Both the position numbers and the translations under genes were made by a program. From Scleroderma bovista (taxonomy: Eukaryota; Basidiomycota; Agaricomycetes; Boletales; Sclerodermataceae), in NCBI GenBank assembly GCA_037178675.1, contig JAYMGJ010000368.1, positions 1 to 20,713 on the forward strand: a DNA stretch of 20,713 bases, in the 5' to 3' direction. Positions 1-20,713 of the stretch are shown in pieces; positions within the stretch are counted from its first letter, which is position 1, and each line of letters begins with the position of its first letter. The notes below the pieces were generated by a model, which searched no databases, had not been told where the DNA came from, and worked only from the letters and a program-made list of their open reading frames with translations.

Positions 1-413
1 GGAGCTATTCAAAATATCGGAATGCCAGCACTGGGCGCCTAAAGATGACATTTGGGCGCTAAAAATCATTTCTTCTCTTTCTCCTTCATTTCTCCGTCAT
101 TCTTCGGCTTCTTTGATCATTCTGGTATGGGAGTTGGACTGCAGACGTGTGCATTCCTTTCTCATACCACAATTGACGTTATTCCTTCAGTTTCTTCTGC
201 TTCTTGGCGGTCCTGGTGCAATAGATGACTGTCTGCATTGGCATTCGTCTCTCGCATCAGGATAGTCTTCTTGTGCGATAGATGGCTACGATGAGGGTCC
301 GTCATGCTTATCCTTTGCATAAGGATCATTCGATATAGGTGTTATCTTCCATGTTCACTGTACCAAACCTGTTTGGTGCGTGACAGCGCCCTCGCCTTGA
401 GGAGCGCATCACG
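1..413. other. Upstream Copia flank without recognisable gag or 5' LTR
   Basis: I see no gene here. A Copia element should have gag (with a CCHC zinc knuckle) and a 5' LTR matching the 3' LTR at 4278-4516 before its protease, but neither the LTR sequence nor a zinc knuckle is visible. The frame of the pol reading is open only from about 384 (TGA at 381-383). Either gag and the 5' LTR lie further left, outside the window, or this copy lost them. The tract is rich in pyrimidine runs (for example around 70-115) and carries no long open frame. Confidence 0.5.
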
Positions 414-3400
414 ATGTATGAGGAGGATGCCATCTCCCTTGGGGATGATGAACCCTTCGCCCATGAGCCCTTCGCCAATGACGAGTTCGATGAGATCGAT
501 GCGATGGGCGCGGAGGCCAGCCTTTTCAGGCAAGTACCTTCTGCACGTGTGCTGATTGACACTGACACGCTCCCTTTACATGTGCACTATACACCGTCAC
601 TGTATATAGCGAGTAGTCACTACAATATGTCATGTCGTATCTCGAGAAATGCATATATCTGTTCGTGTTCACATGAAACAAATGCACGCTGTGCTGGCTG
701 TAAGGGAAAAATGGTCGACGATAGCGAACTATCTGGTGCCTTCTGGCTCCTAGACTCTGGCGCATCACGCCACTTCACCAGTGACATAGGCGATTTTGCC
801 TCTTACAACGCGCTAAAGCGAGCACACTACGCCAAAACAGCAAATGGTGTAGCACTAATCGCTGGCATTGGCACGGTATTACTCCAGTGCCTAGACCACA
901 ACTCAGGGGATGAGAAAGTCATTACACTCACCCAAGTGCTCCATATTCCAGGCACTACTGCACACCTTATTTCTATGGGCGAAATGCTCCAGCGTAACTA
1001 CAAAGTCACTGGCGATAAGCGAGGCATTAGCCTCATTCATAAAGCTGAACGCCTATGGTTTGGGCCAGACCCAGAAGATGATCACAACATCATTTTCAGG
1101 ATTAGATCTATCCCGATAATTAGATCTAACTATATTGCCTCTGTGAGCAAAGTCGATTACAACATTATGCACCGGAGATTTGGGCACCCCTCGAAGGAAG
1201 TACTCCGACGCACGCAGAAACATACGCAGCGCTTCCCAGCAATCCACTTTCCTACTGAGGACTGTGTTTGCCCTGGATGTGCTCTTGGCAAGATGCCCAA
1301 TCGAGCTTTCCCAGAGAATGAAAGACGTGCCTCCAAGCCCTTCGAGCTGGTGCACTCTGACCTGAAATCCTTCCCGGTTACATCGTACCGGAAGTTTAAA
1401 TATGTTATCACCTTCTACGATGACTATACTTCTCATGCCTGGACTATGCCTCTTTGCTCCAAAGCTGCAGCGATTACAGCTGCCAAAGATTTCCTCGAAA
1501 TGGTGCGCGTCCAACATGATACGCATGTCGTTGGATGGATGTCCGATGCCAGCAGAGAATATAAATCCGATCTGTTTGATCGAGCACTCCTTGAGAAAGG
1601 AATTAAAATATATCAAAGTGCTCCAAGAACCCCCATGCAGAATGGCCGCACCGAGCGTTTAGGGTGCACTCTCATGGATAAAGCTGAGTCTATGCGGCAT
1701 CAAGCCTGCATCCCTGACTCCTGGTGGGAATTTGTGTTCGCTCACGCAACCCACATTTACAACCGTACTCTGGTAGCTCGCCTGCGATGGCGCACCCCCC
1801 ATGAAATGCTTAAGGGGGAGATGCCTAACATCGACCACCTATGTGTGTTTGGCTGTGGAGCATTTGTATACCTCCCAGCAACGGCTAGAGCAAATAAGAT
1901 GGCTCCCAAGTCAGAGCTTATGACTTATGTCAGTGTTGTCCCTGGCAATGAGCGCAATTTCTTGTTTATGCACTCCACCAATGCAGTATTTACCGCTGCT
2001 CACGCCGTTTTTGACGAGCGTCACTTCCCTCACTGCCCCAAAAACAGGCGCGAACCTCTCGAGAACCCTTTCGGAAGGGCAAATCCGAAACCAGCCACTG
2101 ATTGACCAGGGAATCCCCCTGATGATATTGACAGTGATGATGATGTGGAACACGACCATGGCTACCCACATCCCCAAGCACAGGATGATGATCCAAAGTG
2201 CGAGGACCCTGAGGCTCCTGAGGAAGAGCCTAACCAAATAAATCCTCCCCGTATGCCATCTCCAGTGCCTCCACCGGCACCGAGAATGCCTTCACTGGCA
2301 AGAAATCCGCCACCTCCGGCACCGCAGCGCCCTGGCCGAGCTGAACACCGCCAGAATGTGCCACAACCCCCTGCAGTTAATATACCTGCCCGCCCCCAAC
2401 GTGAACGTAGAGTGCCATTGCGCCCCGGTAACGTGTATGGTGAGCGGCGACACCCTGTTGAGCAACTCCGGGATATCGAAAGTGCCTCTCGATGGCAAGA
2501 AACAGTGGGTGAGGGCCCTAGGCCCCCACAACCGGACACACCAGACCATATCCCTGGTGGTTTCCCCGACACCTCTGCAACGCTCAGTGAGGAAGATGTG
2601 CAAAAGATGTGCGAGGAAGGGGGAGCAAACCTAGTCTGTTATCTGATGGGCAAAGCCCTCGAAACCCGCGACCCTCAATATGAGAGCGTCCGCAACTGGT
2701 CCTATAAGGACATTGCTCACTTACCCCAAGCTGAGCAGAAACTCTGGCAACTTGCTTGCCAAGAAGAGCTCGACGTGCTGCGAAAACGCAAGGTCTTTGA
2801 GCTAGTTGACCGTCCCCAAGACCAGAAGGTCATTAAGAATCGATGGGTCTTTGATGTGAAGTCGGATGGCCGCAAGAAAGCCCGCTTAGTAGCGAAAGGC
2901 TTTTCCCAGGTTGAGGGATTAGATTTTGACCAGGTCTTCTCACCAGTCGTGCACTTTGAAACAGTGCGCCTCATGCTTGCGCTTGCCGCACTTGAAAACT
3001 GGTACATTACTGGACTCGACGTCTGGAGTGCCTACTTGTATGGCAAGCTCAACGAAGAGATCTATATGGAACAACCTGAAGGGTTTGCAGTTCCCGGGCA
3101 AGAGCGCAAAGTGCTCCGCCTCTGGCGTGCCCTCTATGGCCTCAAACAGGCCGGCCTAGCTTGGTGGCGCACACTCGATGAGTCTCTCAAAGAGCTCGGG
3201 TTTGAGCGCCTTAAGTCTGAAGCAGGCATCTTCTTCTACAAGAAGAAAGGCACCAACATTGTCATTGGTATTATCTACGTTGATGACACTTTATTCTGCG
3301 GCACAAGACTGTTGTTGATGCGATCAAAGCGCAGTTCATGCACAAATGGGAGTGCAGAGACCTTGGAGAACCTAAGGAGTTCCTCCAAATGCGAATCACT

Positions 3401-4231
3401 CGCAAAGGTCATGCTATCCACTTGGACCAATGCGCGTACCTCCAAAAGGTCATCGAACGCTGCGGCATGCTCAATGCAAAGTCCGCAAGCACCCCACTGC
3501 TGGCTGGCTACTATGCTGCCAAAAATACAGAGCCTCTTGATGCGGAACTCCGCTCCCGTTTCCAGACGGTTATTGGGTCCCTCCTGTATCTTATGTTAGG
3601 CACTAGGCCCGACATTGCCTTTGCAGTCACACATCTCTCACGCCATGCCGCGAACCCATCCCAGGACCACCTGTCCAAAGCACTTTATATCTGTCGCTAC
3701 TTGATTGGTACACCTAATTACTCCCTAGTGTACAATGGTGGATCCGGTGCTGGCCTGATTGCATGCACGGACTCAGATTGGGGATCAGACCCTACCTCTT
3801 GCCTCTCACAGACAGGTTTCTACCTGAAGCTTGCAGATGGCTTGATCAGCTGGACTTCTCGTGCGCAGAAGACTATTGCGTACTCGTCTACTGAGGCTGA
3901 ATACATGGATTTGAGTGATTGTGCTCGCCAAGTCACCTGGATTCGGAGTTTACTCGGTGAGCTTGGCTACAAGCTGAAAGCTATCCCGATTTGCAGTGAT
4001 AATCAGGGGTCCATATTCATGGTGTCCAACCCTGTAACGGAGCCTCGCTCCAAGCACATTGACATCCACTACCACGGAATCCACAAGTCAGTCGTGAAAG
4101 GTAATGTGGAACTATTCTTCATTGATGGTGCTGAGAATCCCGCCGATCTGCTCACCAAGAACTTACCCCACGAGAAATTCGCAAAGTTCAGAGCTCAACT
4201 AGGCTTACAGTTTCCCTCTGGCAGCATCTAG
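414..4231 (+). pseudogene. Copia pol polyprotein (protease-integrase-RT-RNase H), broken
   Basis: The first open segment (414-2105) carries the aspartic protease motif LLDSGASRH (Asp at about residue 114), a GAG-pre-integrase HHCC zinc site (HRRFGH near 253-258, CPGC near 286-289) and the integrase core with Asp316, Asp378 and Glu414, which keeps the canonical DD35E spacing. The second segment (2145-3599) has a Pro-rich linker and the RT core (NRWVFDVK, LVAKGFSQ, active-site YVDD encoded at 3276-3287). The third (3338-4231) has the RT thumb and RNase H (TDSDWGS, SSTEAEY, SDNQGS, KHIDIHYH). Segments one and two share a frame and are separated by a TGA at 2103-2105 in the acidic/Pro-rich linker. 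Segments two and three differ by one base near 3302-3311, just after YVDD. Catalytic residues look intact, so the damage appears recent. Gag is missing in this window. Confidence 0.9.
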
Positions 4232-4970: not shown

Positions 4971-7873
4971 CTACCCATCAATTGCATCCCATCCATCTGC
5001 TAATTCAACTTCAGTGGGCTCCGAGCTTCCATCCATGGGCCCCACATCATCTAAGAGAGATACCTTGCACATGTCATCATCGTTGACGAGTCCTAAATGG
5101 CTCCAATTACCAAGACAGAGGAGGGCACAAGTGGTTTGTGCAGAGAGACGATTGTGATTGTGTGATAAGAGAACACGGCCACGGCTAAACAGACATTTGA
5201 CATCGACTGAAGTTGCTACAAGAAAAAATAAGTTGATATGAAAGACGATACTGTGCAGATGTACCTGGGATAGTTAAATAATCTATTGCCATGCATGCAA
5301 GTCGTGGATAAATGATGTGGTGTTCGTGCCACCATGCCAATGCATTGGACACATTCTCAACCCCTGTTGAAAGAAATGTATCGAGTTCATTTGTAGCTAG
5401 GGAGAACGTAGGCTTGTTGAGTGTTGGAAGATCATCAAAGATATTTCCGGTCCCAAAACTGTCCTAGATGAGAATAGTGAGCTTTGAACAACTAGAAAGA
5501 TGTATCAAATAAACTCACTACACCCTCATCACATGAGTTGTCCTCTAGAGTGTCTCCAGGAAGACACTGGGACATGTACAAAGTATTGAATGTGTTGCGA
5601 ATGAGATTCTGCACAGTTGCAACCCAGTCTGGTGTCCAGCCAGCTTGTTTGAAATACTAGAGCTTGTAACGAGGGTGTAACACTGTAGGAAACAGGTCAA
5701 CAGGACTGAGCACTGTGGAAAAATGTATGTGGGATCAAGTTCTTCCTTCTTGAGCAGGCCAGTGGTAAATGTTGTGTCAATATAGTCCATAATGGGGATT
5801 ACCATGGCAAGGTTGGGTGTTGAACAAGAGAAGTACAATGTGGCATCCTTGAGGACCTGTAACAGCAGGTAAAGGCATGGTGTGGACACATGATGGGAAC
5901 GACTGACCTTCAGCACGTCTCGCACCTGTCTCAGCAACTCCCACTCCTTCTCATCAAGAGCATAACTGCTCAGCCCCAATTTGTGCTTATCTGTGATTGT
6001 GTCAATGGCAACTTCATGTTCAACTGCAAAATCTGACAAGTTCCACCGAGTTGAAACGTCATGCGGCATAATTTTTTCAGGTAGCCCAAGTTCTTTCAGA
6101 GTCGCTTTCCAAGCTGGAAGGAGGATCATAGTGGAGTGAATGATCTTGAATGCAATTTTACGGATCTAAAAGGGAGTATACAGGTGAGAATAGGTCTACT
6201 ATACCATTGGGTATCACTGACCTTGACAAGTGCCAGCTTCACCGGATGAATATTACCCTCCAATCTGGCACATTCATTTGCCGTCAAGAGAGATATCTCA
6301 TCGACCCATCCATCAACATCATCAGCATCATTGCTCCCATCCCCAGACCTCTCCCAACTGTTCATCTGCAAATCATCTGTGTCGGCCCCTTCAGCAAGCG
6401 TCATCAATTCGTCTGTGTCTTCTTCACCACTGTCTCATATGTCAAACTCTTTTGTTACTGTTTTGGCTACTAAATTTATAACGTGGAGTAGACACCATGT
6501 CTGGGTCAAATCCCCCCCAAAGTGTGCAATCAGACCTGCAAGCTCATCTGTCATTGTATCGTTTGATGAAGTGTTATCGGTGGTCACGCTCAAGATCTGT
6601 GTATTGTTACTTATATGCCCAGACTGTCTAACCCTTCACACACCTTGTCAGCTACTCTGAACATTTCCAAGACTGCAGCAAACTCTTCTGCAAGAACTTT
6701 ACCTGAATGTGACTATCAAACATAAGCGGACAACTACAATGGTAAGAATATAATATGTACCTTCACAACCTCAATGAAGTCAAGTACCATTACTAACAGC
6801 TTACCCTCCTGTGCCAGGTGGACAGTTATAGCTATGAATGCCCAGTGGTTTGGGGAGGTCCAGGCATCTGTTGCGAAGTTCAATTCGCCATCATATGCCT
6901 TGACATGCTGGTAAGTCAAAAACTTGTTGATTGATTTGCAAACTTACCTGCAGCATCATAGCAACCCGCTTTCGTGTCCTTGCAAATATGAGTCATACAT
7001 CACGTGAAACGGTAGTGGGATGTGGTAAGTAATATCCTGGTCGTCCTGTTTTCATCAATGACTGAAAACCTCTGTCTGTGATAATGTCAAATGGACGCAG
7101 GGATTCGGAGACCCAGCGAACAATTTCCGCCCTGTTGAAGGAACTCATCAATAGCTACAACAATGAAATAGTATATACCTACTTTGTCTCAAACTTCATA
7201 TGCTGCAGGTGCAAGAATCCTTTTTTATTTCGCCCAAAGATGAGAGCGACTGACCCATTTCTAATGTGCTCTTTGACACCAGCATGGGCATCCTCCAAGG
7301 TATCCACATTAAGGATTGTGTGGTATACATCCTTGCCCCAACAGGACTGAACATGTTCCCTCATGTTACTCGTTGAACCTCTGTCAGCTGTATTGAGGAA
7401 TCGGCACACAGTGTGCTTGCAACCCTTTGCCAAGCACTGGAAGACATGGTACCACTGTTCCTTTGCATATTCAATGCTGGGAGTGGGAAAAAAGAATGCA
7501 TACACTGGTGAGGTCCATCCCCTCATTAATCTCGCTGTTATCCATCAGAAGTTGATATTAACATAATCTGTAGGACCCTACTGAGTTCAGCATCAGCGCT
7601 CTCCATTGGCTTTTTAGAGGTACCATCTTCTCGTGTCCGCATCATGGGTGTGGCATCAACCACATTGTCACCATGGTACAAGGTGTCTCCATCCTCCATC
7701 TGTTCTGTCACTTGTTGCTCTGGGAGTACAGTCGTCGTCCTTCGGTTACTCTTCTTTTGTGGTTGTTCCCTGTTACTATCATCATCAACTGTTACCTTTT
7801 GCTTTGCTGTGGCACGAGCATCAGTCATTGCCAATGCCCTTTCACTAGGACGAGAGACTCGTTTGGAGCTCAT
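4971..7873 (-). pseudogene. hAT transposase gene, multi-exon, broken
   Basis: Reading down the minus strand: start at 7873 with a basic N-terminus; a BED-like zinc-finger exon (7183 to about 7526: WTSPVYAFF, C-x4-C and H-x5-C); a segment with TKAEIVRWV and RGFQSLMKTGRPGYY; TDAWTSPNH (6762-6907); then SHSGKVLAEEF (6644-6712); then the catalytic-type TTDNTSSND (from 6596); then VSTRWN and ATLYFS; and finally the hATC domain (WWHEHH, PRLACMAIDYLTIP, TSVDVKCLFSRGR) ending at a stop at 4971-4973. Introns I can place by frame and splice sites include 7132-7182, 6908-6947, 6713-6760, 6597-6643, 5464-5518 and 5216-5264. Damage: TGA at 6993-6995 and 6435-6437, TAG at 5657-5659, and loss of a stretch before the LHPRYKL motif near 5690-5710. 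The exon 1/exon 2 junction near 7530-7590 is unresolved. Confidence 0.88.
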
Positions 7874-8009
7874 GGTAGGAGGACGTGGAAGTGCCAGACG
7901 CCGCTCATTTTCATGTTCTACATTTTGTACAATGAAAATTTATAGGTCTTGTCCATATAAGAAGTTATGACATTCTCACCACCGTGCAGCCCTGTTGTTG
8001 GGTGGCTGC

Positions 8010-8447: not shown

Positions 8448-9130
8448 TCATTTGAATTTATTAGCTAAAAAAAGTTAGATCAGATATAATTGAAAACCAG
8501 CAACTTACACATGCGGTTCCTCAGAGTGATATCCAAAATGAGGTTTTGTATCATACCATATTCATGTTCATGTTCCTGAAGCACCTGCTGAAGATCCTGA
8601 AAAACATTGTCTTGTGTTCCAGAGTCCTCATACTGCTTCACAGAAAGTGCAATAACATCCTGAGAATTGCCTCTTCCATGTAAATAGAAGTAGGAGTACT
8701 CATAAACAATAAGGCATCCTTTGATCATTAAATTAAGTAGGAGAGGAATATAATCTGCTCACCAACACCATGGATTATGCACTGATGCACAGGGGAAATA
8801 ACAGATGAAGGCAACATCAAGGGAAATTGGACAGATTTTCCAATATCAAGTTTGTCCTGGTTATGGTGAGATACAGGGAAGAAAAAAATAAAGAAATTCA
8901 TCTTACAAACTATAAATAAAATAAAATGTATCATGAAGAAAAATGCTAATAACACACCAATGGCTGATTGTCAAGATGAGAAAAACCATCCACTGATGAA
9001 AATAAAACTAACCATCTAAAGGATTGAAAATAGGGAAATGAGACAAAATGCCAAAAAATACAAGACATAACCAACATCCTAATGGCATATCAGACTACAT
9101 TATGATATCATATAGATATTAACTTACTTG
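8448..9130 (-). CDS. C-terminal exons of the GTPase/micro-exon gene
   Basis: On the minus strand I can chain exons with correct splice sites and an unbroken frame: a CAA triplet (9128-9130), a possible 7-nt exon (9072-9078), then 8958-8992 (35 nt), 8763-8856 (94 nt), 8509-8670 (162 nt) and 8448-8464 with the stop TGA. Introns are 8857-8957, 8671-8762 and 8465-8508, all GT-AG. The encoded tail reads GFSHLDNQPL, DKLDIGKSVQFPLMLPSS, PVHQCIIHG, then NSQDVIALSVKQYED and a Gln/Glu/His-rich, probably helical stretch (QDLQQVLQEHEHEYG), ending NKFK. I do not recognise a domain. Phases agree across all four junctions, which is strong evidence for coding. That this is the end of the GTPase gene at 11987-13746, rather than a separate gene, is inferred from shared strand, the phase-0 array between them and the lack of any start codon context here. 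Confidence 0.65.
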
Positions 9131-9196: not shown

Positions 9197-11895
9197 TGTC
9201 TATGCAGCAACAAGAGCAAAATTGGAGTGAAGACAATGAGAACAGACCCAGCTGCACCTGCCATGAAATCACTTACTTCCTGTCAAGCCAATAGGACCAG
9301 AGTGGGAGTGAGAACAGTGAGAACAGACCCTGCTGCAGCTGCCATGAAATCACTTACTTCCTGTCAAGCCAACAGGACCAGAGTGGGAGTGAAGGCAGTG
9401 AAAAAAGACCCAGGTGCATCTGCCATGAAATCACTCACTTGCTGTCAAGCCAACAGGACCAGAGTGAAGGTGGATGCAGTGAGAACAGGCCCAGTTGCAC
9501 CTGCCATGAAATCACTCACTTCCTGTCAAGCCAACAGGACCAAAGTGGAAGTGAAGGCAGTGAGAACAGGCCCAGCTGCATCTGCCATGAAATCACTCAC
9601 TTCCTGTCAAGCCAACAGGATCAGAGTGGGAGTGAAGGCAGTGAGAACAGGCCCAGATGCACCTGCAATGAAATCACTCACTTCCTGTCAAGCAAACAGG
9701 ATTAGAGTGGAGGGGAGGCAGTGAGAATAGGCCCAGCTGCACCTGCCATGAAATTACTCACAAACTATCAAGCCAACAGGACCAGAGTGGGGGTGAATGC
9801 AGTAAGAACAGACCCAGTTGCACCTGCCATGAAATCACTCACATACTGTCAAGCCAACAGGACAAGAGTGGGAGAAAATGCAGTGAGAACAGGCCCAGTT
9901 GCACATACCATGAAATCACTCACCAACTGCCAAGCCAACAGGAACAGAGTGGGAGTGAAGGCAGTGAGAACAGGCCAACTGCACCTGGCATGAAATCACT
10001 CACTCGCTGTCCAGCCAACAGGACCAGAGTGGAAGTGATGGCAGTAAGAACAGGCCCAGCTGCACTTAAAGCCATGAAATCACTTACTTCCTGTCAAGCC
10101 AATAGCACCAGAGTGGGAGAAAAGGCAGTGAGAACAGGCCCAGTTGCACCTGCCATGAAATCACTCACTTGCTGTCAAGCCAACAGGAGCAGAGTGGAAG
10201 TGAAGGCAGTGAGAACAGGCCCAGTTGCACCTGTCATGAAATCACTCACTTGCTGTCAAGCCAACAGGACCAGAGTGGGAGTGAAGGCAGTGAGAACAAG
10301 CCCAGCTACACCTGCCATGAAATCACTCACAAACTGTCAAGCCAACAGGAGCAGAGTGAGAGTGAAGGCAATGAGAACAGGCCCAGCTACACCTATCATG
10401 AAATCACTCACTTGCTGTCAAGCCAACAGGACCAGAGTGGGAGTGAAGGCAGTGAGAACAGGCCCAGCTGCCCCTGCCATGAAATCACTCACAAACTGTC
10501 ATGCCAACAGGACAAAAGTGGAAGTGAAGGCAGTGAGAACAAGCCCAGCTACACCTGCCATGAAATCACTCACTCGCTGTCAAGCCAACAGGACCAGGGT
10601 GGGAGTGAAGGCAGTGAGAACAGGCCCAGCTGCACCTGCCATGACATCACTCACAAACTGTCAAGCCAACAGGAGCAGAGTGGGAGTGAAGGTAGTGAGA
10701 ACAGGCCCAGTTTCACCTGCCATGAAATCACTCACTTGCTGTCAAGCCAACAGGACCAGAGTGGGAGTGAAAGCAGTGAGAACAAGCCCACATGCACATG
10801 CCATGAAATCACTCACTTGCTGTCAAGCCAACAGGACCAGAGTGGGAGTGAATGCAATGAGAACAGACCCAGTTGCACCTGCCATGAAATCACTCACATA
10901 CTGTCACACCAACAGGACCAAAGTGGGAGTGAATGCAATGAGAACAGGCCCAGTTACACCTGCCATGCAATCACTCACAGTCTATCAAGCCAACAGGACC
11001 AGAGTGGGAGTAAAGGAAGTGAGAATAGACCCAGGTACACTGCCATGAAATCACTCACATACTGTCAAGCCATTAGGACCAGAGTGGGAGTGAATGCAGT
11101 GAGAACAGGCCCAGTTGCACATGCCATGAAATCACTCACATCCTGTCACACCAACAGGACCAGAGAAGGAGTGAATGCAGTGAGAATAGAACCAGCTGCA
11201 CCTGCCATGAAATCACTCACTTCCTGTCGAGCCAACAGGACCAGAGTGGGAGTGAAAGCAGTGAGAACAGGCCCAGTTGCTACTGCCATGAAATCACTCA
11301 CAAACTGTCAAGCCAGCAGGACCAGAGTGGGAGTGAAGGCAGTGAGAACAGGCCCAGTTTCACCTGCCATGAAATCACTCACATCCTGTCACACCAACAG
11401 GACCAGAGAAGGAATGAATGCAGTGAGAATAGAACCAGGTGCACCTGCCATGAAATCACTCACTTCCTGTCAAGCCAACAGGACCAGAGTGGGAGTGAAG
11501 GCAGTGAGAACAGGCCCAGTTGCACCTGCCATGACATCACTCACAAACTGTCAAGCCAGCAGGACCAGAGTGGGAGTGAAGGCAGTGAGAACAGGCCCAG
11601 TTGCACCTGCCATGAAATCACTCACAAACTGTCAAGCCAACAGGACCAGAGTTGGAATGAAGGAAGTGAGAAGAGGCCAACTGTACCTGCCATGAAATCA
11701 CTCACTTGCTGTCCAGTCAACAGGACCAGAGTGGGAGTGAAGGCAGTGAGAACAGGCCCAGCTGCACATTCCATGAAATCACTCACTTGCTGTCAAGCCA
11801 ACAGGACCAGAGTAGGAGTGAAGGAAGTGAGAACAGACCCAGTTACACTGCCATGAAATCACTCACCAACTGTCAAGCCAACACAACCAGAGCAA
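9197..11895 (-). repeat. Tandem array of ~81-bp units, each a 77-81 nt intron plus a 3-nt micro-exon
   Basis: Thirty-four triplets recur with spacings of 81 bp (26 times), 80 bp (6 times) and 84 bp (once). Plus-strand positions of the first bases include 9197, 9277, 9358, 9439, 9520, 9601, 9682, 9762, 9843, 9924, 10004, 10088, 10169 and so on to 11626, 11706, 11787 and 11867. On the minus strand every triplet is preceded by CAG (31) or TAG (3) and followed by GTGAGT (30), GTAAGT (3) or GTCAGT (1). The remainder of the unit is pyrimidine-rich towards the acceptor (TTCTCACTGCCTTCACTCCC) as in an intron. Triplets on the minus strand are GAA 8, CAA 8, TTT 7, TAT 3, TTG 2, CGA 2, GAT 2, ACT 1, ACA 1: no stop codon. 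All three minus frames of the unit contain stops, so the rest cannot be coding on that strand. The repeat is seen directly; splicing of each unit is inference. Confidence 0.9.
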
Positions 11896-11986
11896 TGATT
11901 CATGTAACATAATGTGCTTAGACTGAATTGATTACCTATAAAATATTGTGTGATATTAATGGCACCACCTGGTATAAGTGTCCTAC

Positions 11987-13746
11987 CTGTTTGAATGGCA
12001 TCCATTGGAGTATTTCAAGTTCCAGAAGTCTTTTGTTAAAATAATTGTCCTTTGCCAATCTCATGATGTTTCTGCAAACCATTAAAATATCATCTACTAC
12101 CTTCCACTACATCAGACAGCCCTCTCACCTAACAGCAAATTCAATATTCATATCAAAATTGACTTGTTGTGCTGATACCACTAGCTTCTGTAGTTCAACC
12201 TCATCAAGTGCATTTGTGGTGCATCTGATGAGTGGTCCACAATCTGCAGCTTCGTTGTTCATACCTACATAAAGCAGCACCATTAGCATACTTACATGAA
12301 AGGTCCAGGCATCATAACTCACTACCCAGTGACAAATAATCCTTTGGTGGGTACTTGCACTCATCCAATTGGGTTTTTATTTTTCTTCTAACCTCACTCA
12401 ACATTTGTGGTGCCAAGCTTCCAGCCTTGAGCATTGCCTCTTTCATTTGCATACCTTCATCTCTGAGCCTTCCAATTGCCTGCCCCTCCATTGCATCAGC
12501 CTTTGTCAACAGCACAATTACTGGCACTACATAATAATCATTCTGAGTCATTTATTACAAATCATAATGGAGATTTTCACCATGTTCAGTATTGCATCCA
12601 TTGAAGAACTGCTCTTCTGCAGCCACAATTGCCCTCTCAGACTCACACATTGGAATACAAAACCTGGATCCTGATTTTTAGCTACTTATTTAGATTCGAT
12701 AATGTAGTCTCACCAGACAGCATGGATCCGCTCTGCTAACTGCCTTTTCGTCGCTCGGTCTGCGATGAATTTCTTCATCAACTCTAATTCACTCACAGAG
12801 CCTGACTCGAATCCTCGTGAGTCATGAAAGACGAAACGTGGATTGCTCTGGAAAATCAACTCATTTTCGATGTCATGGTATCCCCTCTGGGCATTATTAG
12901 CTTGTTGGCGACACATCCCAGCATCATCAAACGCACCTCCACTGATCCCTGCACAACCATAGGATCAAGCTGGGAATATTCGTGCATTAGTACCTTTCAA
13001 TATTGTGCAGCGAGACGTCCTACCTTTTCGCCTTTGGCATTGAACACTTCGGGGAGCTCTGTGGTATTGCAAACACGCTGTAAGAGTGTCGTTTTACCAG
13101 CATTGGATCTGCCAATGACGAGGACTCTAAAACGACCAATACGGTCGAAGTGCTTTCTAACGGTCCCAGGATCCATGTGAAGCATATCATCGGCACCTAG
13201 AGAAGAGTCGGTCACCATGCCACTAATGTAGGGCCAGTTCATGATATTGGACATAAGTACCCACCTACGCTGGAACCCGGGTTACGCTGCTCAGTGCTTC
13301 TGATGTCCGCAGAATCCATGTGAAGCACATCATCAGCACCTGGAGAGAAGAGTTAGTCGCTACCTTGGTAATGTACGCCATGATATTGGACACAAACACT
13401 TACCTGCACTGGAGACCGGCTGCTGAGTCATTCTGACATCCGCAGGGTCTATGCGAAACATATCGTCAGCACCTGGAGAAAAGAATCGGCAGCTTGTTAT
13501 TCGGTTCATGATATTGGACATAAGTACACACCTGCAGTGGAGCCCGCGTCACGCTGCTCAGAGTTTCTGACGTCCATAGGATCTATGTGCACATCGTCAG
13601 CACCTGGATAGAGTCGGTGACCACACTGATGATGTGCGTTATCCAGTCAACTATATATACTCACTTGCTCTGGGGTTTGAGCCACGCTTCTTCGTATTCC
13701 TGCATGGCAGAGAAGCCAAAACTTTGCTAACGACTCTAGGAACCAT
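11987..13746 (-). CDS. P-loop GTPase (G domain) gene, 11 exons
   Basis: The exons are 13665-13746, 13532-13603, 13404-13472, 13265-13339, 13024-13196, 12937-12948 (12 nt), 12714-12886, 12581-12663, 12326-12526, 12129-12264 and 11987-12071. All introns are GT-AG (50-75 nt) and the frame is open for 387 codons. The start is ATG at 13746-13744 in CAACCATGG context. Residues: N-terminal basic peptide (1-27), four ADD-x-HMDP-like repeats, then the G domain with G1 GRSNAGKTT, NCNTTE-type segment VCNTTELPEVF, ERGYHDIENELIF, G3 VFHDSRGFE (DxxG), FCIPMCE, G4-like LLTKAD, KYPPKDY, and STQQ-like SAQQVNFDMNIEFAV. This is a TRAFAC-type G-domain protein of a kind I associate with multicopy Agaricomycete families; its cellular role is unknown. 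It shows no stops or frameshifts, unlike all its neighbours, which suggests it is functional. The last exon ends after LQWMPFKQ in phase 0 and no stop follows, so the message must continue through the array. Confidence 0.85.
13197..13664 (-). repeat. Tandem exon-intron duplication at the GTPase 5' end (periods 131, 133, 143 bp)
   Basis: Exons starting at 13603, 13472, 13339 and 13196 all begin GTGC(T/C)GA(C/T)GAT and encode ADD(V/M)-x-(H/R)-(M/I)-D-(P/S)-x-x-(V/I)-R. The introns after the first three share ACTTATGTCCAATATCATG or close variants near their start and CGA(C/T)TCTT(T)TCTCCAG-like ends. All three duplicated exons are in phase 1 at both ends (72, 69 and 75 nt), so each extra copy keeps the frame. 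The fourth copy runs straight on into the G domain, so it is the founder copy or the boundary of the duplication. Confidence 0.88.
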
Positions 13747-15402: not shown

Positions 15403-18356
15403 TCAGTAACCTCCCTGTGAACTCAGTACAGGTTGCTGATGCTGAATAGACGGCGACGACATCTTCATCGCTGGCGTTGGCGGAGGACGAGGCGGGGTTT
15501 GATGCGGTGGTAGGGCTAGTGTGACACTGGGCAGAGGGGATGGACTATTATGTTGTAGGCGCGGAGACAGCGAAAGGGCAGGATATTGGCCTCCCGTGTA
15601 CCAAATCCCCCGTTGTCGCCTGGACCGCCCCCATAATGCCCGGTCGCCGTTTGCTGATAGTGTACGAGTAGGAAGAATACCGGGAGAACTGTGAGGGCTA
15701 GACAACCCCGTAGCACCACCCACGTCTTGCCCGGTCCCGAGCGTCGGTGTCTGCTGCATCGGTGACCCATTCCACTCTCTCCCAGGAGGAGGCTTCAGAT
15801 TTACATTGATCCCTGCACCCAATTGCATATTGAAATGTGTCCCGTTAGGTACCAGGTATGCCTGAATCTGCCGACCAGGCGTTGGCTGAATCGCTGAAGT
15901 CGGATCTTGACCTGGAGCAAGCGCCATCCTCGAGTTTTGCGTCGGTTGCGGCGAAAGGCCATTAGGCTGTCGAGGGGCCTGCATATAAGCACCATTTGGG
16001 ATCACATACCCGTTAATTGGGCTGTGATACCCGTTCAAGGGAAGCAAGATAGGCTGCTGGATATCGACTTTCTGTCGTGGAGGAGACCCAGTTGCCATTT
16101 GTACACCTGTTGTTGGTGCAGCGCTGACCTCTGGTGTTTGCTGCGTACTTCCGTTAGAGGTCGGTCCATTGACGACAGGTGCACCATTCGGTATATACGA
16201 AGCTTTCACTGCATCTCTGTCCGTAGACAAGGGGAGGGTAGGCGATGCGCTGGGCGTGGGAGTGGGTGAGAAATCTGCATTTGATTGCTGATGGGATGAT
16301 TGATGAGGGGGTAGTACAGGAGCCGAATTTGATGTCGCAGGAGGGTGAATATTCCCGCCAGATCTTCGCATATGAGGAATGGTGGCAGGAGGTTGCATGC
16401 CCTTCATGTATGCCCGCATGGATATCGGCATGCCATTCGGGACGGAGGGTAGCGGTACGCTGGTAGGCATTTGTCAGGAGGTTGCAAAGGGCGAGATGCC
16501 ATTTGTAAATCCGCGCTGGACATTCTGTGTGTTTTTGTGAACTGGCAGGGTAGCAGCGATCCGAAATGGGGCGACAGCATACAGACGGCCATCTTGCAAG
16601 ACGTAAATCGTAGCGTCATTATTGATCTTGTTCGGTGAGCAACGTCGTCATATGATGCAGATACCTCGGGTCATAGTCATCCACGAGCATACGGTCCTGT
16701 TCCTCCGCCCCTCTGGAGTCACAGCGGGATCACCATCCTGGTTAAAGCGCCAACGTTCTTGAAGACGACGTGCCATCTCCTCATCCTCTGCATTATTGAA
16801 TATCTCCTCAGAGATCGACAAAACCGCGGCGTCGTCGCATCGATGTGATGTCATCATCATGAATACCAAGCTTGTGCAAAGCATCTCGCCTGTGAAGCGA
16901 GATGCCGCCAAGACGTGTCAAGCGGCAGCGAAGATAGCGAAGATGCTCAAGCTTCTTGTCTGTCTTCCACGCCGTCTGGCGATGGAGTACTCCGAGAGGA
17001 CGGAGGAATGAGTTTCTAGTGGCGTCAAGGGTGTGGTAGCGTAAGCCGTTGGTAAAGGTTCTGCATCGAACAGATTAAAACGTGAAGAGGTGTTATTGCA
17101 AGTGAAACACACCTCCATGACATCCCTTGTAACCGTGGTCCCCCTCCTTGCGACACGCAAGATCACGTTTCATGGCCGCATTAATAAGACTGAGTCACTC
17201 CTTCGGTCGGATAACGGCTTCCATAGCTACTATTGGCGGCGCCACATCACTATCTCTAGCACGAAGCTCGAGACCCGGTAGATGACTGAAAGGACGCTGT
17301 CAGGCAACTTGAATCAGTGAAAGAGAGATTCGACGCACCCAACGGCCTCGGTCCTGGGCTTCGTCACCACGTGCTCCTTATCATGTAACAATCCGCCGTC
17401 GTCTTCCATGCTCAGCGATGGGAACTTGCGTTCAAGTTCAGCAAACTCGAGCCTTTTCTCGCATCGTCCTTTGTCAAGTTTTCGCGTTCAAGTAATAATT
17501 TGGCCAGGCCATGGACTTGTGCAAGCTCCACTTGCAAACAGAATAGTTTGTCGGAAGAAGTGGCTTGAGATGCGCGAATCTTCCAGACGGACTTGACTTC
17601 TAGGTGTCCATCTCGTCAAACTATAAAGAAGGGTCATCGTCTCTGAGCTGGAAAACCCGAGCGGACTGACATTCAGTGTTGGGGTGATTCTATGGCTACC
17701 CCGCTCAGTCTTTGCGCCAATGTGGATAGACTGCCATTGCTAAGCGCAGTAGTCGTGCTGGTGGAGGCATCCGAGCTGGTAACGGCAATGAAAAGACACC
17801 TCGGTAGTCTGAGAACGGGGGAAAAGCATGCAACATTCCATGCTCTATTAACAGGGGACCGGTCACCATTTACATGCGATGGGCAACAGAATACGTACGG
17901 TATAAAGGAACGGGGTCTTGTCATGGGTGACCTTCTCAAAGATCCCCATTACGAGTTCAAACTCATCTTCCGAGATGGTAACAAGCTGAGCACAGGTTCC
18001 TTGTCTTTCGCCTTGGCACTGGGTCGTCGTTCCAGATGTTGAAAGGATACCTCGTGCACAGGTGCCTTCTCCACGCGCTTCCTCGTTGTTGCTATCGAGC
18101 CACTCCTTGTCCGGTTCATTCACGGAATAGGAGAAGCCACCGATGATGTCACTTGCAGTAGACTCATCGACTGTGTCTGAGAATCGTGTGTATGCGTCGG
18201 ACTACTTTCAGTGAGCGGGACGGTAGATCGCACAAATGCAGCAGGAGCCTTGTGGGGGACGGCGATGCGCGTGGTCCGGCTGACGGACTGGTGGCGGTGC
18301 GATGAGGCCAATACGTGATCTTCTCGCCTACAATTCTTCCCGTCACCAGACAACAT
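15403..18356 (-). pseudogene. EPL1: Enhancer of polycomb-like protein 1 (EPL1), copy 1, broken
   Basis: EPL1 is the scaffold subunit of the NuA4/Piccolo histone acetyltransferase. On the minus strand, landmarks appear in the right order: FSDTVDESTASDIIG (from 18186), NEPDKEWLDSNNEEARGEGT, TISEDEFELVMGIFEKVTH (the EPL1 domain), FSDYRGVF and MPPPARLLRLAMAVYPHW (about 17720-17840), PTLN with an intron before FDEMDT, LEFAELERKFPSLS (about 17400-17450), LPGLELRARDSD (about 17250), SISEEIF and RRLQERWRF (about 16730-16820), YVLQDGRLYAVAPF (about 16570-16610) and the Pro/Ser/Gln/Asn-rich tail with repeated PNG motifs, ending QPVLSSQGGY at 15406. Damage includes a TAG after FDEMDT, a TGA near 17195, frameshifts near 16690 and 16635, TGA at 16474-16476, and a 30-bp in-frame deletion relative to copy 2. 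Introns are kept, so it arose by DNA duplication, not retrotransposition. The N-terminal edge (18180-18356) is assigned only by weak similarity. Confidence 0.8.
17144..18179. repeat. Left arm of a ~1.04-kb inverted repeat (EPL1 copy 1)
   Basis: Its reverse complement aligns with 19637-20713 along the whole length, with scattered substitutions and small indels. The 88 bp next to the spacer (CAGACACAGTCGATGAG through GGCTCGATAG on the minus strand) are identical. Homology stops sharply at 18179. The outer limit is set only by the end of the window. Confidence 0.9.
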
Positions 18357-18692: not shown

Positions 18693-19636
18693 ACCCGTTC
18701 TTCTTGTGCACCATAGGTACTCTGTCGGTTCGCTGCTAATCAAAGCAATAAGCGGGACCTCATCTAAAATATATAATTAAGGAACAGTTGGCGCCAGCAC
18801 GTCATGCCGTGTTTGTGGCTATACATACGTGTCTGCAAATCGCAGACAGGGTTGCCCTGCGTGTCGACGCCACGACCATGACCACCGTTGACGGCGTGAC
18901 CACCACCAGATCGCAATGACTACAGTGACCACGGCCACCACCACAACTATGAGTAACGCCACCGCCAGCCACCACCACCTCAACTTCAACTCGAGGCCTT
19001 GACCACCACTACCACGATCGACGTTGCACGATGTCCACCTCAACTCCATCACTGCCCCCTCAACCTCAAGCTCGATAGGTCCTCATCCCTCGAAGTGTCC
19101 GTGGCCAATAAGTACATTCCACGCCTATCTATCAATCAGTCCTAAACGCACAGCAACCGGCAACGATGGATGTCGGCACAGGCCATCAACACCACCCCCG
19201 TGCAGCTAGCGACACAACGACGGCGACGATAGCCACCACCAGTGCAGGCAGCAGCACGACGACGACGACGCTTGGCAGCCAATGCTGCTCAGCAACAGAC
19301 GTCGACGATGACACCGCCGTTTGCTAACGACAACCATCCCCTCCCTCCAGCGCATCGACATCGACCAGCCCACCACCACCGCCACCACATCGCCACCACC
19401 ACCACCACCACCACCACCATGGCCACTAACGCAACGGCGACAGCCCCATTGCGCCAGCATGACAACGACGAAGGCCGGTCACCCCTCCACCCGCATCGGC
19501 CACCACCTTCACCATGCAGACGATAAAGGCCAGCCCCATTACCATCACCCTCACACAAACAATGGCCCCACCACCATGTCGACGACGGCCCTACCACAGC
19601 ATGACCTCACCACCAGACGACGACGCGACCATTACC
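18693..19636. other. Spacer of the EPL1 inverted repeat: AT-rich patch and CCA/ACC-rich low-complexity DNA
   Basis: No supported gene. An AT-rich patch (AAAATATATAATTAAG, about 18768-18783) is followed from about 18870 by CCACCA/GACCACC-rich sequence. The purest part is nine CCA triplets at 19393-19419. Long open frames in this tract on both strands are composed of Thr/Pro/His or Trp/Gly/Val runs, as expected from the trinucleotide bias, and are not taken as genes. Confidence 0.6.
19393..19419. repeat. (CCA)9 microsatellite
   Basis: Nine uninterrupted CCA units, the core of a wider CCA-biased tract. Confidence 0.95.
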
Positions 19637-20713
19637 CAGACACAGTCGATGAGTCTACTGCAAGTGACATCATCGGTGGCTTCTCCTATTCCGTGAATGA
19701 ACCGGACAAGGAGTGGCTCGATAGGAACAACGAGGAAGCTCGTGGAGAAGGCACTTTCAACATCTGGATCAACAGCGCAGTGCCAAGACGAAAGGCAAGG
19801 GACCGGACTGTGCTCAGCCTGTTACCATCTCGGAAGATGAATTCGAACTCGTGATGGGGATATTTGAGAAGGTCACCCATGATAAGACCCCGTTCCTCCA
19901 TGCCGTACGTATTCTGTTGCTCATCGCATGTAAATGGTGACCGATCGCCTGTTAATAGAGCATAGAGTCTTGCATGCCTTTCCCCCCCCTTCTCAGACTA
20001 CCAGGGTGTCTTTTCTTCGCTGTTACCAGCATCCACGTTTGCTGCTTTTGCAGTACCAGCTTGGATGCCTCCACCAGTACGACTACTGCGCCTGAAAAAG
20101 GCAGTCTATCCACATTGGCCGAACGCAGTACTGAGCTGGGTGGCCATAGAATCATCCCAACACTTGAATGTCAGTCCGCTCTGGTTTTTCAGCTCCGACA
20201 CGACGACCCTTCTCATAATCACTTTATAGTTCGACGAGACGGACGCCAACAATAAATGCTTCCGTTGCTGAGAGATCCAGTCCGTCCGGAAGACTCGCGC
20301 CTCTCAAGCCACTTCTTCCGACAAACTATTCCGTTTGCAAGTTGGCCTGGCCAAATCATTACTCGAGCGCGAAAACCTGAAAAAGGACAATGCGACTCGA
20401 AAAGCCTCGAGTTCGCCGACCTTACACGCGAGTTCCCATCGCTGAGCACGAAAGACAACGACGCATTGTTACACGACAAGGAGGACGTGGTGAAGAAACT
20501 CAAGGCCAAGGCCGTTGGGTATGTCGAATCTCTCTTTCCCTGATTCAAGTTGCCTGATAGTGTCCTTTCAGTCGTCTACCGGGTCTCGAGCTTCGTGCTA
20601 GAGATAGTGATGTGGCGCTGCCAATAGTAGCTGTGGAAGCCGTTATCTGGCCGAAGGAGAGACTCAGTCTTATTAATGCAGCCATGAAACGTGATCTTGC
20701 GCGTCTCAAGGAG
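19637..20713 (+). pseudogene. EPL1: EPL1 copy 2, N-terminal part, broken, runs off the window
   Basis: Plus strand. DTVDESTASDIIGGFSYSVNE and DKEWLDRNNEEARGEGT (19641-19760), TISEDEFELVMGIFEKVTH (about 19826-19884), an intron-like stretch from GTACGT near 19903, FSDYQGVFSSLLPASTF and VPAWMPPPVRLLRLKK (about 19993-20090), a frameshift near 20120 into GGHRIIPTLE, an intron ending TTTATAG at 20229, FDETDANNKCFRC, TGA at 20269-20271, EIQSVRKTRASQATSSDKLF, LTREFPSLSTKDNDALLHDK, then an intron GTATGT...TTTCAG (about 20519-20571) into RLPGLELRARDSD and NAAMKRDLARLKE at the window end. It begins abruptly at 19637 inside the EPL1 domain, without the first exon. The C-terminal half lies beyond the window. 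Confidence 0.82.
19637..20713. repeat. Right arm of the inverted repeat (EPL1 copy 2)
   Basis: Reverse-complement partner of 17144-18179. It reaches the window edge and probably continues. The arms are separated by 1457 bp. Confidence 0.9.

Follow-up and report, generated by a model that had tools for sequence, protein, structure and literature searches.

Tandem copies of an intron in a Scleroderma bovista GTPase gene family as predicted chains of one-codon exons

Why should a GTPase gene of the basidiomycete Scleroderma bovista contain a minisatellite, each unit of which looks like an intron plus a single codon? The window analysed here is one whole contig (JAYMGJ010000368.1, 20,713 nucleotides) of a 51.8-Mb genome assembled in 850 contigs. 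A pattern search of the window for [CT]AG-NNN-GT[AGC]AGT identified 34 sites on the minus strand, running from 11869 to 9197 and spaced by 81, in some cases 80 and in one case 84 nt, which leaves introns of 77, 78 and 81 nt, while TRF reported a period of 81, 33 copies and 86% matches. The 34 units from which the original prediction started, each with precisely 3 nt between acceptor and donor, are thereby borne out. The array (9197..11869, minus strand), also recognized by the intron profile described below, comprises 34 predicted one-codon exons, with first bases at 11869, 11789, 11708, 11628, 11547, 11466, 11385, 11304, 11223, 11142, 11061, 10981, 10900, 10819, 10738, 10657 and 10576 (units 1–17) and at 10495, 10414, 10333, 10252, 10171, 10090, 10006, 9926, 9845, 9764, 9684, 9603, 9522, 9441, 9360, 9279 and 9199 (units 18–34). 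It has GTPase exons on one side and a conserved C-terminal domain on the other; inspection by eye places the end of the last GTPase exon (12071-11987) in phase 0, and the downstream exons form an open frame, again as had been proposed.

The GTPase part of the gene is predicted, based on its homologues and on the MMR_HSR1 match, to comprise exons 13472-13404 and 13339-13265 (repeated N-terminal exons), 13196-13024, 12969-12937, 12886-12714, 12663-12581, 12526-12323 (start set by eye), 12264-12129 and 12071-11987, all on the minus strand. The Pfam search of this part identified MMR_HSR1 above the cut-off, with neither NACHT nor Ank among the 12 families listed, and the C-terminal domain of the window gave no Pfam match for NACHT or Ank. 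Among the best 120 of 602 GTPase homologues the nearest belong to Scleroderma (81% for P0001), followed by those from Pisolithus and Astraeus. The motif GADDxxxxMD opens three successive exons (window 13196-13472, minus strand), and the N-terminus seems from the sequence to have grown by exon duplication as well.

An AG|GT junction (11934..11937, minus strand), in form a zero-length exon, lies downstream of the last GTPase exon and ahead of the array; the original prediction missed it. The string [ACT]AGGT[AG]AT[TC], i.e. AG|GTRATY with no base between, occurs upstream of the array in 20 of the 30 loci analysed below. Known recursive splice sites subdivide very long introns; the site described here resembles them in having AG|GT with nothing between, but the parts of the intron that it delimits are about 51 and 66 nt long. 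The RNA-like contig P0011, discussed below, has no residue from this site between WMPYLQ and the following tail, and a single intron would give the same result. On the other side of the array five further micro-exons of 3 or 6 nt, also overlooked at first, are predicted on the minus strand (9130-8907), with introns that lie outside the repeat. The triplets CAA (9128..9130) and GAT (9076..9078, coordinates by eye) are the same in all 25 loci with a C-terminal anchor (the 30 loci less L013, L024, L031, L032 and L033). Inspection of the same 25 loci by eye revealed AG-3 nt-GT at the positions of ATG (9013..9015) and TTT (8907..8909), whose codons vary between loci, and AG-6 nt-GT at that of CCATTG (8958..8963) in every case. 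The C-terminal domain follows on the same strand, with a first exon that has counterparts in relatives (8763..8856), a second exon (8509..8718, last base by eye) and a predicted last exon encoding SNKFK and the stop (8448..8464, by eye), with a similar ending in the models P0126 and P0129. The predicted gene thus contains 39 consecutive micro-exons of 3 or 6 nt and 12 other exons.

A search of the same genome with the array DNA yielded at least 78 matches, merged by eye into about 40 places, 30 of which, including the window, were analysed with a profile built on the intron interior, without the terminal GT and AG. It recovered 1203 intron cores, with 15 to 76 in each locus, and the 1098 junctions that separate adjacent cores. 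In 29 of the 30 loci GTPase exons precede the array on its strand; the sequence of the remaining one (L014) opens within the array, at the contig end, with the C-terminal domain following. This domain follows the array in 26 of the 30 loci, and 3 of the other 4 stretches stop within about 230 nt of the array. Exons of 2 or 4 nt or a stop were seen in a few loci (L009, L012, L016, L020, L025 and L026), which are perhaps in decay.

The gap between neighbouring cores is 3 nt at 1077 of the 1098 junctions, of which 1072 read AG|NNN|GT and 5 read AA..GT; the 21 junctions of other lengths include some model-boundary artefacts, and 180 of 1094 introns have a length other than 78 nt. In introns of exactly 78 nt (n=914) variation affects 0.1-0.7% of copies at the four end bases, 4.9% in the interior columns (median; the mean is 9.4%) and 46-65% in the triplet columns. 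The exact string AG-N3-GTGAGTGATTTCATGG is found 582 times genome-wide, compared to 0 hits for the backwards control, 2 for the N2 version and 3 for the N4 version. A single stop (TGA in L020) was found among the 1072 triplets, where shuffling of the three columns within each locus (1000 shuffles) gave a mean of 154 and a minimum of 131, and the 582 exact strings contain TAA or TGA in 2 cases (both TGA) and TAG in none. These triplets are not independent, since copies share ancestry; counting rare triplet types, which guards in part against recounting inherited copies, gives a milder deficit (1 stop in 56 copies, with stops making up 9.4% of one-step changes). NAG triplets number 10 versus 366 for NAA, GTN occurs 8 times and C at the third base 4 times (all out of 1072); a NAG triplet would create a second, competing acceptor. 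Judged from these counts, the triplet palette is one acceptable to both the splicing machine and the reading frame. The constant 3-nt exon on which the original prediction also relied holds as far as the length itself is concerned, but its constancy was dropped as evidence, because, per base, the triplet has no fewer indels than the introns. Serial one-codon exons would explain the intact splice ends, the scarce stops, the avoidance of NAG and the place of the array in the gene. If, on the other hand, the whole array were a single long intron extending from 11987 to a downstream exon, the triplets would be absent from the mRNA and the splice signals would be relics or decoys, a situation that predicts neither the stop deficit nor the NAG deficit.

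Protein models and contigs from related fungi bear on the same question. The Pisolithus tinctorius model P0107 joins WFPNTK directly to the C-terminal domain, and P0064 has almost nothing between the two, as expected for one long intron. However, the RNA-like contig P0108 (1695 nt), which represents the same gene and is identical to P0107 in 353 of 354 residues through WFPNTK, continues exactly at the join for another 44 residues, predominantly Q, E, Y and R, where the model goes straight to the C-terminal domain. A second RNA-like contig, P0011 (2346 nt), encodes the GTPase without introns and, after WMPY, a tail of about 80 residues in which K, S, E, L and W are frequent, likewise contrary to a direct join. 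Its tail is followed by VSDFMAGPAGC..., which corresponds to a translated array intron of the window's genome (identity of up to 84% in 25 residues, E 1e-11, whereas the reversed control reached no better than E 0.61). P0011 carries the source code 'lgn', which we take to denote assemblies of public reads, and it reads as a message with the preceding introns removed and one array intron retained. The composition of its tail scores +32.0 bits with the P0011-type arrays and -51.7 with the rest (at most -75.8 for windows of the P0011 GTPase), while the tail of P0108 scores +44.6 with the remaining arrays and +1.7 with the P0011-type. Each of the two tails thus fits the palette of one array subfamily, and we infer that they are built from one-codon exons. 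It is very improbable that the array is one long intron.

No message spanning both the tail and the C-terminal domain was found (18 candidates, none significant), and inspection by eye of 72 proteins related to the C-terminal domain revealed no array-type tail. The ends of two Pisolithus models, P0083 and P0084, resemble the translation of an intron of this kind (at best 65% in 20 residues, E 2.5e-5), which suggests that the repeat unit is probably older than the split of the genera. The structure model obtained for P0011 is weak (mean pLDDT 65.6), with the tail predicted as long helices at about 53-73 and no alignment depth in that region; Foldseek searches with this model returned GTPase folds at low TM.

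Could the array instead encode a protein of 27-residue repeats on the opposite strand? The window contains plus-strand frames of 458 and 529 codons, one antisense frame runs through the entire array without any stop in L009, L034 and L036, and the variable triplet is a single codon also in one plus-strand frame. Nonetheless, the lengths of the 180 introns that depart from 78 nt fall into residue classes of 73, 54 and 53, so that no plus-strand frame is kept, and in L029, L030, L032 and L040 the antisense strand stays open for at most 151 to 208 codons, each of its frames containing at least 40 stops. Antisense coding also leaves unexplained the conserved AG/GT ends and the micro-exons downstream of the array, and is hardly credible as an explanation. 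An antisense frame is open practically throughout the array in L009, L012, L034 and L036 (592-1024 codons; 805 in L012, with one stop), and these four loci are related or neighbouring. Such long frames are allowed by the near-identity of the 81-nt units and constitute a trap for annotators. One antisense frame matched the Pfam family Aft1_HRA above the cut-off, which we regard as a chance hit of repetitive sequence, as no single stretch passes alone.

Both the long-intron and the antisense readings thus fit much worse than serial one-codon exons, the central claim of the original prediction, which is supported by the splice ends, the stop and NAG deficit, the place in the gene and the relatives' RNA-like contigs, the splicing itself being predicted. 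Based on the sequence, the array very probably consists of 34 acceptor-codon-donor units inside the GTPase gene that are spliced as a chain of one-codon exons and that, together with the five additional exons of one or two codons, encode a hypervariable tail of about 40 residues before the conserved C-terminal domain.

If the units are copies of one another, how do their codons come to differ? Among 743 micro-exons with 78-nt introns on both sides, pairs from the same locus with 0-1 mismatches in the 156 nt of flanking introns differ in the codon in 77% of cases (n=2877), and pairs of the same class from different loci in 86% (n=3452), compared to 91% for random pairs. The triplet in the 0-1 mismatch class shows a mean difference of 1.63 bases, while 3-base windows within the introns differ on average by 0.006-0.112 bases (pairs with at most 4 mismatches elsewhere; sample of 6000 within-locus pairs). 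Such nearly saturated codon differences between almost identical introns would be expected if the triplet were spliced as proposed and mutated in place by a targeted, high-rate process. Against this, a locus uses one synonymous codon almost exclusively: Arg (CGA or AGA) is pure in 20 of 23 loci, Leu in 20 of 22 and Ala in 8 of 9, whereas shuffling gave means of 6.0 (maximum 12), 5.1 and 1.1 pure loci, respectively. Moreover, 8 of the 30 loci contain duplicated blocks of units with unchanged codon order, in which the introns show mean differences of 0.11-4.2, compared to 2.4-13.0 in other pairs. The synonymous purity within loci and the blocks that keep their codons argue that the codons are not made anew, but are inherited tokens, and make mutation in place an unlikely source of the diversity.

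Near-identical introns between unlike codons would also be left behind if, with the same splicing, introner-like sequences had been inserted between the codons of a formerly ordinary exon. Introner elements are near-identical introns that occur in many copies per genome, scattered over unrelated genes; the arrays share with them the many near-identical introns per genome, but they are tandem, and all 30 belong to one gene family (GTPase seen upstream in 29). Insertion is also difficult to reconcile with the differing number of units (15 to 76 introns), with the duplicated blocks and with the loci L038 and L039, which are 99.7% identical upstream and whose codon strings differ by one CAT unit, i.e. 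one histidine. An origin by insertion is therefore improbable, and the L038/L039 pair illustrates the growth by one amino acid per duplication that the original prediction envisaged. Other paralogues (L009/L012, L025/L037 and L026/L033) possess unlike tails despite 98-99% upstream identity, although their upstream parts might themselves have been homogenised. The predicted proteins of the GTPase family are likely to gain, lose or swap amino acids singly in this fast-changing tail. Analysis of the codon order for helical periodicity gave a z of 0.39 at 100 degrees and weaker peaks near 50 and 90 degrees.

These observations can be accommodated in a model in which serial one-codon exons are combined with copying of whole units. 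Splicing would be largely sequential, intron after intron, because a 3-nt exon is too small for the 3' and 5' splice complexes together, and the codon just joined would become the exon side of the next donor. The array would change in length by whole units or blocks, so that a unit equals a residue and the frame is always kept. Conversion would homogenise the introns, selection for a diverse, stop-free and splice-compatible string would keep the codons unlike, and the units would be copied and exchanged as tokens. We are thus somewhat inclined to regard the array as a protein-writing intron minisatellite, where an 81-bp unit consists of a standard intron and a codon, each copy adds one amino acid in frame to a rapidly evolving receptor tail, more than 1000 one-codon exons per genome have homogenised introns but codons kept different, and exon skipping could multiply the diversity further. 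As its most likely role, the tail may serve this expanded family of GTPases in recognition or interaction, evolving fast and acting in the manner of the repeat regions that vary in fungal NLR genes.

We found no report of such arrays in the open-licence literature. The array genes nevertheless exhibit, as far as published descriptions go, the same kind of gene structure as the NACHT-ANK (nank) genes of the truffle Tuber melanosporum, in another phylum and another protein family. The latter are described as having dozens of 3-bp exons, and alternative splicing has been suggested to diversify their recognition domain (Iotti et al. 2012, as cited in PMC4986451, PMC3689799, PMC10197012 and PMC9815663). 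According to these descriptions, both systems are expanded fungal families with dozens of 3-bp exons per gene (here counted at the DNA level: 34 in the window and 1077 in the 30 loci), and diversification of a C-terminal recognition region has been proposed for both. The nank genes are described as ascomycete NLRs with NACHT and ankyrin repeats, whereas the array gene encodes a basidiomycete GTPase with neither domain in the Pfam search and has one intron repeated as a minisatellite, a comparison that for Tuber relies on the published descriptions of exons. As far as those descriptions go, the novelty lies in another phylum, in a family of GTPases, in one intron repeated throughout the array and in introns and codons that evolve separately. 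Single 3-nt exons are known elsewhere in fungi, according to the available part of PMC5639578.

Flatworm micro-exon genes are characterized in the accessible text of PMC7653826 by consecutive micro-exons (<70 nt) with lengths divisible by three, and defined by at least 7 exons, at least half of them micro-exons, in runs of at least 4. The predicted array gene, with a run of 39 micro-exons and 12 others, falls within this definition, which concerns structure only and implies no kinship: the flatworm genes are animal, and arrays of near-identical introns with one-codon exons are not mentioned in that text. For the repeats of fungal NLR proteins (the nwd family of Podospora), the same kind of source (PMC4986451, in part) describes concerted evolution, few hypervariable positions and differences in repeat number. 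The array genes also show similar repeats, hypervariable positions and differing repeat numbers, but the repeat described for nwd is the protein itself, while that of the array is a predicted intron with one protein codon per unit.

One-codon exons are at the limit of the presumed capacity of the spliceosome, and a genome with about 40 places where 15 to 76 such introns follow each other provides a natural test of sequential splicing. As the copied DNA (the intron) is separate from the expressed letter (the codon), tandem duplication and conversion could make a protein longer and alter it with the frame intact. Together with the truffle genes, as far as these are described, the arrays suggest that codon-sized exons have been used for rapid diversification more than once in fungi. 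Gene finders often miss such arrays: the public models P0001, P0005 and P0014 of relatives end immediately ahead of the array with VI.., translated from the zero-length site, while the partial protein models P0121-P0124 of relatives begin just after it.

The search of the window for structured RNA gave no Rfam match at the gathering score, and that of a plasmid collection gave no match. Beside the gene, at 384-4231 on the plus strand, there are long open frames whose integrase and reverse-transcriptase-like motifs suggest, by eye, a Ty1/copia-type retroelement, and just 3' of the gene, at 5545-7939 on the minus strand, there are open frames with the look of a broken hAT-type transposase, including a zinc-finger-like part. 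Near the right end of the window an inverted repeat was observed, in which the sequence DTVDESTASDIIGGFSYSVNEPDKEWLD is common to two opposite open frames, 17863-18201 (minus strand) and 19312-19854 (plus strand).
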